Source: Eximiradius proteiniborus (GTDB lineage: Bacteria > Bacteroidota > Ignavibacteria > Kapaibacteriales > UBA2268). Taken from it: 36,110 nt of DNA. The position numbers and the translations under genes were made by a program. This document shows, one piece after another, positions 1,725-36,110 of the stretch (position 1 is the first letter of the stretch; each line of letters begins with the position of its first letter). The notes beneath the pieces are model-generated. The model saw only the letters and a list, made by a program, of their open reading frames with translations. It searched no databases and was not told the origin of the DNA. The stretch is from the NCBI GenBank assembly GCA_937936035.1, contig CALGXJ010000055.1, positions 1 to 36,110 on the forward strand. The letters run 5' to 3'.

Positions 1725-3347
1725 TTAAAAATCACCAAATTTTAATATCAAACGTGCGTATGGACGCACATCCCCATTTATATTTGAATGCCTGAAATAT
1801 CCCAAAACATAGAAATTACTTAATATTTCATATCCCATTGAAATAGAAGCTGAAAAATTCCGTTCTACCTTGCCACTCAAAAATGAAATTTCCATCGGGT
1901 CGAACCATCTGCGAGTTTGAAATGGGTCGCCACCTGCATTATATATTAAGCTATCGCCTTCGAAAACATTTGCTCCGTGCCGTGTGTAGCTTATTCCAAG
2001 TTCAATAGGATAACGCTGCCCCCACCAGTATTTTACCGATAGCAAATATCTGTCTGAATTAGGCAAGAGTATAGAACCAATAAGTTTTCCATCGTGCGAA
2101 ACAGTGTTTTGTCGGTTAAAATGCGAAAAAGTATATGGTTCGACCCGTGCATACTCAAATCCAATATCCAGATTATATAGGGAAGCATATTCTACTGAGA
2201 AATTATAAGCCATCTTGTTGCTCCAGTAGCCTGTTCCGACTTTTTCGAAAATTATGTCGTCGAGCAAATAACTGCCTTTGATTTGCAATCTGCTAACCGG
2301 GCGAACTGTATAAAACAATCCCATAAGCGAATTATCTCTATCGTGCAATGCGTGTTCAATCGATTTCAAAAAGCCAATCGGGTTCAGGTATGCTAAATCA
2401 GTATTCCTATTCGAGTATATCACTTGCTCGACAAAGGCAACTTCTCCCCAGCTCGGTCTAACCGCAATTTTATGGTAAGCCATATACTTGGGTGGTATTT
2501 CTGCGAAGGCACCAATCGAGCTTTGAGTTGGCTCCCCAATAAGCGAACCGTGAATAAATGAATATTCAAAATTGCTGAATTTTGCTGCAAGAGTGAGCGC
2601 ATCGAATGCTGGCGCAAGGTCTGCAATAAAAATTCTTTGCTGAAGTCCGGCACCTTCGAGCTTTGTTTCGCGTGCGATTGATGCAAAGAACCAACGATTA
2701 CGATAATTCACGTGCGATTCAGAAAAGTCAATATCATCATTCAATTTTGTAAATTTTATACTTTTTGCATAGTATTTATCGGCTGCAGCAAGTTCACGCG
2801 AACCAGAGAACAAACGTCCATTAGTCGCCTGCAAATTAAACCCCATTCGATTGTCGATGCTTCCATTGAAGCGAACACCTAAAGTACCTATGATGCTTTT
2901 TTCGCCATTTCTTAGGGAGAACATATTATCGAGCATACCAAGTGGCGAAACCAAAACTCTTGTAGAGTCGTAAGAATAATAATAGAAAAACTTTTCTTTG
3001 CCCGAAAACAAATCTTTTGAAAGCACAAAAGAACTATCGCTTGGGCTACTGAAAAGAACTGTTTTTTCTCTACTAACAATTTCGAATTCGATTAAATACT
3101 TTTCAAGTAATTTTACATCAGAATTTGAAAGATATTCTCGCTTATTATTAATTAAACGCAGAAATTCCTGAATTTCCATTTTTTGAAGTGGCAGCGACGA
3201 TAGCGAAAGATGTTCAAGCAAACCAATAGATTCAGCTCTTTGCAGAAAGATATATACAGGGTGGGCAACCTGAACATTTTCTACTTGTGCATATACAGTG
3301 CTTGCAATCAAAAGGCAGATTGCCGCTATTAATCTTCTTTTTATCAT
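1725..3347 (-). CDS. Wzi-like capsule assembly / outer-membrane beta-barrel protein
   Basis: 540 aa, signal peptide, alternating beta-strand pattern to an aromatic C-terminus (LILKFGDF); start overlaps the stop of the SLBB protein; operon context with polysaccharide export genes. Confidence 0.6.
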   Translation of the reverse strand: MIKRRLIAAICLLIASTVYAQVENVQVAHPVYIFLQRAESIGLLEHLSLSSLPLQKMEIQEFLRLINNKREYLSNSDVKLLEKYLIEFEIVSREKTVLFSSPSDSSFVLSKDLFSGKEKFFYYYSYDSTRVLVSPLGMLDNMFSLRNGEKSIIGTLGVRFNGSIDNRMGFNLQATNGRLFSGSRELAAADKYYAKSIKFTKLNDDIDFSESHVNYRNRWFFASIARETKLEGAGLQQRIFIADLAPAFDALTLAAKFSNFEYSFIHGSLIGEPTQSSIGAFAEIPPKYMAYHKIAVRPSWGEVAFVEQVIYSNRNTDLAYLNPIGFLKSIEHALHDRDNSLMGLFYTVRPVSRLQIKGSYLLDDIIFEKVGTGYWSNKMAYNFSVEYASLYNLDIGFEYARVEPYTFSHFNRQNTVSHDGKLIGSILLPNSDRYLLSVKYWWGQRYPIELGISYTRHGANVFEGDSLIYNAGGDPFQTRRWFDPMEISFLSGKVERNFSASISMGYEILSNFYVLGYFRHSNINGDVRPYARLILKFGDF

Positions 3348-33014: not shown

Positions 33015-33386
33015 ATGTTAAATGTAAATCAGTTAATTAAGATTTTTATCATTTCATTGCAAAATCAGGGTAAGCAACATTTCTTCGCTTATTCCCCGGA
33101 AATTTCTTTAATTGCACCAATCAGCCTGAACAAAGAAAACGATGATTTTGACGAAGACGAAGATGACGATGACGACGACGAAGACGACCAAGATTACTAC
33201 GAAGATAATGAATACGAAGGTGATGAGTTTGACTTTGGCGATGATGATGACGATTTTGATGATGAAGAGTTCGAATTTGACGACGAAGAATTCGATTTCG
33301 ACGACGAAGATTTAGATTTCGACGAAGACGACCTCGATTTCGACGAAGAAGACGATTTGTTCGAGGACGACGAAGATTTAGCATAA
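33015..33386 (+). CDS. Ultra-acidic Asp/Glu-rich repetitive protein
   Basis: 123 aa; ~45-aa non-acidic N-terminus, then nearly continuous D/E; AGG 7-9 nt upstream of ATG. Confidence 0.7.
   Translation: MLNVNQLIKIFIISLQNQGKQHFFAYSPEISLIAPISLNKENDDFDEDEDDDDDDEDDQDYYEDNEYEGDEFDFGDDDDDFDDEEFEFDDEEFDFDDEDLDFDEDDLDFDEEDDLFEDDEDLA
33255..33359 (+). repeat. Five tandem 21-bp (7-aa) units within the acidic protein
   Basis: FDDEEFE / FDDEEFD / FDDEDLD / FDEDDLD / FDEEDDL, each 21 bp. Confidence 0.85.
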
Positions 33387-33406: not shown

Positions 33407-33452
33407 CTTTTTGGTTGAAATGGAGAACTTTAAGGTTCTTCATTTCTCGTTT

Positions 33453-35408
33453 ATGAGCAAAAAATGCTTTATATTGAATGTCCTCTTACTATTTTCAAAT
33501 TGTCTGTATTCTCAGGATATAGATGATTTCGAATTAGAAAGATACCTTGTTCAGTTTTCCTCAGAAGAAGAACTGACCAACGTTATAGAAACTCTCGAAT
33601 ATTATTTCGCAAATCCTGTCAAACTCTACAAAGCCCGCCCGGATGCCCTGACTGTTCTGCCAAATATTAATTATTATGTTTCTTCTGCAATAATTGAACG
33701 GTTCAACAATAATCCGGGTTCGTCCTATTTGTCGCTTTTCGATGGTTTAGAGCTTTCCGACATCCAGCAAAAAATAATCATTAAAGCAACCGATAGGGAC
33801 ACAATTCAGCAGCGTCGGTTTTCTGCCGACTACAGAGTTCGCAGCATCGAGCGTCTCGAAACTGTCCGTGGATTGAAAGAGAAAAAATACCTTGGAGATA
33901 AATCCGACATCTATCAGAGATTTCAGGCAAATTACTCTCAATTCCAAATTCAGGCTATCGGAAATAAAAATTTAGGTGAGATTTATCTTTATGATTTTTT
34001 TTCTGTTGGTTCAAAATATCAAACTGATAATTTAAAAATATTAGTTGGGGATTTCGCTGCTGCTTTCGGTTGCGGGAATACGCTCTGGCAAACATATTCT
34101 CTTGGCAAAGGTGGCGATGCGGTTCGCTCGGCTACACCCTATCGAAACTCGGTAAATCTCAACACTTCATCAATGAGAACAAATTTTATGCGCGGCGGCG
34201 CCATCGAATACAAATTCAATCACCTCTGGCACACCTTTACTCTGACCGCTTTTGTCTCGAATGCTAAACGACCAGCAAATGTTGATACAGCAAAAAAAAT
34301 TGCTACTTCTATCTACACTGCAAATTATTTCCATACCAGAACAGAAATCAACAAAAAAGATGCTCTTGGTGAAACATCCGTAGCCGTTAATTTTGCATAT
34401 AATTACAAAAAAATCACACTTGGTGCTACCTGTTTCTCGTTAAAATACGATTATCCACTAAAAAGCTCTTCCAGCCGTGCCTTCGAAGGCTCGAGCTCAA
34501 CTATTATTTCAGTATATTCGCTTTATTCTGCTCCAAAAATTAGCTTGGGCGGTGAGTTTTCTCTCTATTCAGAAGAGTTTCCAGCGGTGAAACTATATTC
34601 TTTATTCAAACTCAATAATGTTGATTTTGCTGTTCATTACAGAAACTACCATTCTAATTACAGAAGCTTTTGGGGATATAACTTTGGCGAAAGCTCTATC
34701 ACTGCCAACGAAGAAGGGCTTTATACAGCCTTTTCTGCAAAAATAAGCAAAAATCTTAGAGCGGAAGCATACTTGGATTTATATCGCACTCATTGTCGCA
34801 CCTATTCCGTCGAAAAGCCAATCAAAGGCTTTGACTATTCAATAAAACATCTATATGATAATAAATTGCTCGGTTCGTTCTTTCTATTGATAAGAGCCGA
34901 AGCTAAAACTGATGGCTTCAAGCCCAAAGGAACCTCAAACCAGGTTATTTACACTCTTCGCCGTAATCAGGTTCGTTTTGAATTCGAGCGCAGAATTATA
35001 AAAAATTTTACATTCAAAACACGATTTGATGCGACTGATGTTGACTTTGAACGCAAAAAGCCCAATGAAAATGGTTATGCCTCTTATTTGCAAATAAGTT
35101 ATGATGTGCTGAAAAATCTCTCAATTACAGGCAGAGTCTCTATTTTTAATACTGATAGTTATTCATCTGCAATCTGGCATTATGAATATAGAATGCCAAC
35201 TTCTGTTTACACAAACCCGCTATATGACGAAGGCAGTCGCGTGTTGCTTCGGATTAATTATTCACCATTGAAATTCATCAAGCTGTATTTTGCTTATACG
35301 AGATTAGAAAAACCGAAACTCGAAAATCTGGGCAGTTCCTACGATTTAATCAAGGGCAACAAAGACAATCGGCTTTATATGCAAATAAACATTAGCTACG
35401 CGGAATAA
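33453..35408 (+). CDS. Helix-hairpin-helix-like domain fused to an outer-membrane beta-barrel
   Basis: Track starts at TTG 33411; the ATG at 33453 gives a good signal peptide (MSKKCFILNVLLLFSNCLYSQ). N-terminal HhH-like DALTVLPNINYYVSSAIIERFNNNPGSSYLSLFDGLELSDIQQKIII; remainder beta-barrel-like. Confidence 0.65.
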   Translation: MSKKCFILNVLLLFSNCLYSQDIDDFELERYLVQFSSEEELTNVIETLEYYFANPVKLYKARPDALTVLPNINYYVSSAIIERFNNNPGSSYLSLFDGLELSDIQQKIIIKATDRDTIQQRRFSADYRVRSIERLETVRGLKEKKYLGDKSDIYQRFQANYSQFQIQAIGNKNLGEIYLYDFFSVGSKYQTDNLKILVGDFAAAFGCGNTLWQTYSLGKGGDAVRSATPYRNSVNLNTSSMRTNFMRGGAIEYKFNHLWHTFTLTAFVSNAKRPANVDTAKKIATSIYTANYFHTRTEINKKDALGETSVAVNFAYNYKKITLGATCFSLKYDYPLKSSSSRAFEGSSSTIISVYSLYSAPKISLGGEFSLYSEEFPAVKLYSLFKLNNVDFAVHYRNYHSNYRSFWGYNFGESSITANEEGLYTAFSAKISKNLRAEAYLDLYRTHCRTYSVEKPIKGFDYSIKHLYDNKLLGSFFLLIRAEAKTDGFKPKGTSNQVIYTLRRNQVRFEFERRIIKNFTFKTRFDATDVDFERKKPNENGYASYLQISYDVLKNLSITGRVSIFNTDSYSSAIWHYEYRMPTSVYTNPLYDEGSRVLLRINYSPLKFIKLYFAYTRLEKPKLENLGSSYDLIKGNKDNRLYMQINISYAE

Positions 35409-35466
35409 TTGATTTAAGTAATATTTGTTGAGAATGTTTCTACTTGTGATGGATATATAAAGCACA

Positions 35467-35632
35467 CTATACTTTATTTTTTGTAAATTCGTAGAGTTGA
35501 TAAGTAAGTTTATCTATTTCTTGCTTCTATACGGTTTTATTTGCATTTTTATCCTTCTTTTTTGCTTCTAATATTTTATCTATTAACTTTTCCGTTTAAT
35601 GAACCGTCGGTTCCCTCTATTACATTAAAAGT
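35467..35632 (-). pseudogene. Decayed C-terminus of a type IIG-like restriction enzyme / N6-adenine DNA methyltransferase
   Basis: Minus-strand manual translation: TFNVIEGTDGSLNGKVNR* then, after a frame change, DKILEAKKKDKNANKTV*KQEIDKLTYQLYEFTKNKV*; resembles the common C-terminal DKILEAKKKDKNADT..LEQEIDKLVYQLYGLTEEEI pattern. Interrupted by one frameshift and one in-frame TAG. Confidence 0.6.
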
Positions 35633-35644
35633 TTTAATATTTTA

Positions 35645-36110
35645 TTAGAAAATATATTGTTTTTCTTCTTTTTCTTTTGCTAAACTGCGAGCGAATTCTA
35701 TACAGATTGGTAAATTATTTAAAAAATCTTCTGTACCCATTATTAAGTATTCAAAGCTACCAGATGAAATTTTCTTGATATTAAAATCAGGTAATTCAGT
35801 ATAAATTGGATTTTGCTGGACATTACTAAAAAAATCGACAAGCTTTTGTTTTGATTCTTGTTTCAAAATTCTCTGCATACCATTATTTTCCTCAAAATAA
35901 TCACTCTCGGATATATCGTCACTAATTTTTGGATTTATTATCACTAAAAACTTATCAGTACTTGAAGCAAGCTCATTGAAAATTAAATTGTTTATATGAG
36001 GATCGAAAAAACTATATCCAATAACAAAAAAGTATTTTTTCTTCTTTAGAGAGTTTTTAAAATATTCAAGAAGAGAAAAAAAAGGATCTATAGTATAAAT
36101 TTTTGTCCCA
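35645..36110 (-). CDS. SIR2-like domain protein, C-terminal part (truncated by the window edge)
   Basis: Reading frame stays open to the edge beyond the GTG in the track: GTKIYTIDPFFSLLEYFKNSLKKKKYFFVIGYSFFDPHINNLIFNELASSTDKFLVIINPKISDD...; FVIGYSFFDPHINNLIF matches the ..viGySf.D..in..l signature of SIR2-like proteins. Confidence 0.7.
   Translation of the reverse strand, partial: GTKIYTIDPFFSLLEYFKNSLKKKKYFFVIGYSFFDPHINNLIFNELASSTDKFLVIINPKISDDISESDYFEENNGMQRILKQESKQKLVDFFSNVQQNPIYTELPDFNIKKISSGSFEYLIMGTEDFLNNLPICIEFARSLAKEKEEKQYIF

Follow-up and report, generated by a model that had tools for sequence, protein, structure and literature searches.

The name BPAS was given by Song et al. (2023; PMC10620215) to a long-B pAgo whose gene is followed downstream by that of a SIR2_2 protein. 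In a gammaproteobacterial BPAS, an invading plasmid triggers Asn-dependent NAD+ depletion, and the depletion of NAD+ by GbbAgaS needs its Asn155. Before the trigger, the toxic SIR2 is restrained by the BPAS Argonaute (PMC10620215). Like BPAS (long-B pAgo and bAgaS, og_44, SIR2_2; GbBPAS, PMC10620215), the operons related to the locus described here have a SIR2_2 gene directly downstream of an inactive long Argonaute gene, and the catalytic Asn and His and the two-gene arrangement are likewise present in them. We consider it very probable that the SIR2 protein of this locus serves as effector in a long-B Argonaute-SIR2 (BPAS-type) abortive-infection system, which consists of two genes and is inserted between two chromosomal genes. 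As far as can be judged from sequence, the locus is a divergent BPAS-type Argonaute-SIR2 pair, a new member of a kind that is already known.

The window, which is the whole stretch of 36,110 nucleotides that was analysed, makes up the entire contig C55, and its edge is therefore a contig end. The source genome has a size of 1.69 Mb in 198 contigs and is 78% complete. On the minus strand, a frame of 154 codons that ends with a stop codon at 35645 is open as far as the window edge (36109). It encodes the C-terminal part of a SIR2_2-type (bAgaS-like) protein, the 5' end of the gene being cut by the contig end. The earlier note had described the listed 99-aa ORF (35645-35944, minus strand) as part of a longer frame, open to the edge and containing YFFVIGYSFFDPHINNLIF. 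This description was borne out by the 154-codon frame, of which the 99-aa ORF is the section after an internal GTG. The conserved SIR2_2 motif region YFFVIGYSFFDPHINNLIF lies at 35975..36034 on the minus strand (approximate codon limits). All four rows of alignment A1 have GYSFFDPHINNL without any change, and the GYSF-D of the motif region is common to other SIR2 proteins.

The fragment matched Pfam SIR2_2 with an E-value of 0.0018 and 18.8 bits (profile positions 75-136 of 141), which is under the cut-off of 24.5 bits because the C-terminal part alone is present. Its best match among defence models was PADLOC Aga_SIR2 (PDLC02414; E = 1.1e-22, profile positions 201-310 of 313), the model of the Argonaute-associated SIR2 family. 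The next PADLOC model was 12 orders of magnitude weaker. Searching solved structures with the fragment using phmmer gave chance matches and nothing else. By the two profile matches, the SIR2 similarity of the fragment is real and beyond chance. The SIR2-like identity suggested from the letters of the window thus passed the HMM check, and the reading as a defence effector is supported and can be narrowed to a probable SIR2 partner of a long-B Argonaute. A full length of about 424 aa is expected for the SIR2_2-type protein, of which the fragment represents the C-terminal third.

Three full-length homologues, 51-60% identical to the fragment, turned up when 85,000 species genomes were scanned. 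They come from a Melioribacteraceae genome (L002), a contig binned as Pacearchaeota (L003) and Ignavibacteriae BY39 (L004). Their SIR2 proteins are 422-426 aa long, compared with 304-375 aa in the BPAS proteins used for comparison. SIR2_2 is the sole Pfam family above its cut-off on these proteins, with 34.6-40.7 bits in all three, and PADLOC Aga_SIR2 is the best match of each (E = 2e-75 to 4e-88). In all three loci an Argonaute gene is located directly upstream of the SIR2 gene on the same strand, and the two genes overlap by ATGA (...TTTATATGA...). The Argonautes are 669 and 675 aa long, the gene of L002 being cut by the contig start. They match the PADLOC pAgo model PDLC02385 with E-values of about 1e-105 to 1e-112, and Pfam Piwi was found in two of the three. 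The pair of L003 lies within an apparent type I restriction operon, with the methylase gene before it and the specificity and restriction subunit genes after it. A type I methylase/specificity-like gene is immediately upstream of the pair in L004.

Among solved SIR2 proteins, 8w9l is nearest in sequence (E = 3.7e-9); it belongs to the SIR2/HerA set (8w9l, 8wld). A fold model of a homologue has low confidence (pLDDT 61) and contributes little, and Foldseek lists SIR2/HerA and SPARSA as weak matches to it. Such matches would fit a SIR2 effector of another kind, such as a Thoeris ThsA-like protein, SIR2/HerA, a DSR-type protein, or SPARSA with a short Argonaute. However, the three close homologues are all paired with an Argonaute of about 670 aa, no HerA or ThsB gene is found beside any of them, and generic SIR2 models score many orders of magnitude below Aga_SIR2. 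SPARSA (a short pAgo with SIR2-APAZ) likewise has an Argonaute-controlled SIR2 NAD+ hydrolase, but the Argonaute here is long rather than short and no APAZ was detected on the SIR2 protein. A SIR2 effector of another kind is thus very improbable, and the comparison favours the SIR2 partner of a long-B Argonaute.

The earlier note had proposed to look for the catalytic Asn and His of SIR2 in the missing N-terminal half. All full-length relatives have both residues (Asn in TLNND, His in KLHGS); in the window copy, that half lies in unassembled sequence. Argonaute-associated SIR2 domains were taken as putative nucleases by Ryazansky et al. (2018; PMC6299218), and the SIR2 protein could accordingly be a nuclease, or else a protein deacylase, instead of an NAD+ hydrolase. 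We hold this to be improbable, since GbbAgaS depletes NAD+ via Asn155 (PMC10620215) and the likely counterpart of this Asn is kept in the relatives. An NAD+ hydrolase remains the preferred reading of the SIR2 protein.

At the PIWI tetrad positions, the Argonautes of the relatives have N (GFNVY), Y (IHYYKPL) and S (IYSKL), not D, D and D/H. These substituted positions, which cover three of the four positions of the tetrad, align with the inactive RsAgo. In their MID domain the Y...K...Q pattern is kept, and by its family this domain is predicted to bind a 5'-phosphate guide. The sequence relatives of the Argonaute in the PDB are AfAgo, RsAgo and EcAgo, which belong to long-B in the published classification.

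The guide type, the activation and the NAD depletion proposed here are modelled on the characterised system. The Argonaute gene, followed by the SIR2 gene, would be co-transcribed and translationally coupled with it. The catalytically dead Argonaute would hold a small 5'-phosphate guide RNA and, once loaded, would find complementary DNA of an invader (plasmid or phage). This recognition would free the bound SIR2 to hydrolyse NAD+, and with the loss of NAD+ the infected cell may halt growth or die ahead of the spread of the invader.

The partners of the effector had been expected beyond position 36110. When the genome was searched with the Argonaute of L004, a single match was obtained, for residues 1-96, at C134:2746-3033 on the plus strand and running off the contig end. 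Full-length SIR2 also gave a single match, namely the fragment at the end of C55. Contig C134 (locus L011, 3,035 bp) has an OPT transporter gene at 268-2331 on the minus strand, and the Argonaute start at 2746-3035 is open to the contig end without stops. In the window, the left chromosomal flank is a gene for a 665-aa protein without Pfam match (33411..35408, plus strand), whose orthologue adjoins the OPT gene in two genomes of the same genus, G002 and G003. By blastn, homology to the three sister genomes (G001-G003) ends at about 35410-35425 of the window, and the DNA from 35425 to 35644, up to the SIR2 stop codon, is unique and forms the left end of the inserted segment. On the C134 side, DNA similarity to same-genus genomes stops at about 2415-2453. 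Both stops meet at one short stretch of the same-genus relatives. In G002 and G003, the orthologue of the 665-aa gene lies directly beside that of the OPT gene, on the same strand and at a distance of about 105 bp, and both Argonaute and SIR2 are absent from all three sister genomes.

The ends of C55 and C134 most probably bound a single insertion, a joining that we infer because the flanking genes are adjacent in matching orientation in two same-genus genomes. The gene order would then be 665-aa gene (+), SIR2 (-), Argonaute (-) and OPT (+). The start of the expected partner gene was thus located on C134 and tied to the edge of the window by this empty-site comparison. The unassembled middle of about 2.5 kb would hold the greater part of the Argonaute gene and some 270 codons from the start of SIR2, including those of the catalytic residues, and it was found on no other contig of the genome.

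That the middle of the locus is absent from the assembly, and that the matching region of G001 is rearranged with its OPT gene split over contigs, would also be expected of a decaying remnant, in which the Argonaute piece and the SIR2 piece would each be a broken gene on its own, with a real rearrangement behind the contig ends. We find this unlikely: both fragments are stop-free up to the contig ends, the breaks coincide with contig ends, which is the pattern expected of assembly failure, and the flanks and orientation fit one intact two-gene insertion. A probably intact Argonaute-SIR2 pair, interrupted by assembly, is the reading that we retain.

Both the Argonaute and the SIR2 protein here are distant from the BPAS main group; for the Argonaute, identity is about 21-24% along roughly 60% of its length. 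Long-B-type pAgos of the same phylum (L078-L085) lack an adjacent SIR2 and have other proteins as neighbours. A model of the Argonautes of this lineage scored 222-273 bits against L078-L085 and 120-147 bits against the SIR2-paired group. The Argonautes of the lineage form a tight group (100/100) far from the SIR2-paired ones of Hymenobacter plasmids, Leptolyngbya, G162 and G367, and in the Argonaute and SIR2 trees alike the lineage is a branch of its own apart from these. The trees are unrooted and were built without GbBPAS sequences and without long-A or short Argonaute references.

When three long branches were left out, a single branch (99/97) split the SIR2-paired from the other Argonautes. 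When they were kept, the SIR2-paired group was split, and one SIR2-paired clade was not rejected (AU p = 0.11). These unrooted trees demand no second acquisition of SIR2. A partner exchange, that is a swapped effector, had been suggested by the better scores against Argonautes without SIR2, and it was not supported by the reduced tree, in which a single change suffices, or by the AU test. It is doubtful that the locus represents a separate, rare long-B lineage, related to Ignavibacteria (one copy binned as Pacearchaeota), that gained its SIR2 independently of known BPAS. If it did, this would mean effector exchange among long-B Argonautes.

Among 396 genomes of the phylum, a close SIR2 was found in this genome and in G412 alone, and the G412 match has the contig coordinates of L004, so G412 and the L004 genome are the same. 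Viral contigs and phage records yielded no virus-borne copy. The relatives on plasmids are distant ones alone, all under 60% identity. Occurrences of the combination are rare and scattered, in line with the account of pAgos in general given by Ryazansky et al. (2018; PMC6299218). With this pair, NAD-depleting defence triggered by an Argonaute would reach a group of uncultured bacteria that has been poorly sampled. The find changes no principle, and gives a divergent pair for studying how Argonautes control SIR2 effectors.

At the insertion site, the nearest relative G001 has the 665-aa gene followed by genes for a Y1-transposase-like protein, a type IIG restriction-modification-like enzyme and a PLD-SNF2 helicase (L027:6971-14694). 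A type II restriction endonuclease and a methyltransferase are encoded on the OPT side (L028:1-3977). The putative defence cassette is present in one genome and missing from its sister species, and the nearest relative has a restriction-modification-like cassette at this spot. On the evidence of G001 as the one genome of this kind, with its disrupted OPT gene, the site may be a hot spot that repeatedly receives defence cassettes.

The OPT gene of G001 appears broken in the assembly (L027, L028, L029), with residues 1-45 on C113 and 418-687 on C121. Between the OPT and Argonaute genes of C134 there is a perfect 16-nt palindrome, ATTCATCCGATGACTT (L011:2509-2541), which is REP- or MITE-like. Three near-copies of this palindrome are found in G001 (L028 at 340, 663 and 4042), one of them beside the OPT break. 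In the window, a 123-aa ORF at 33015-33386 on the plus strand has an almost pure aspartate/glutamate tail that makes up its C-terminal two thirds.
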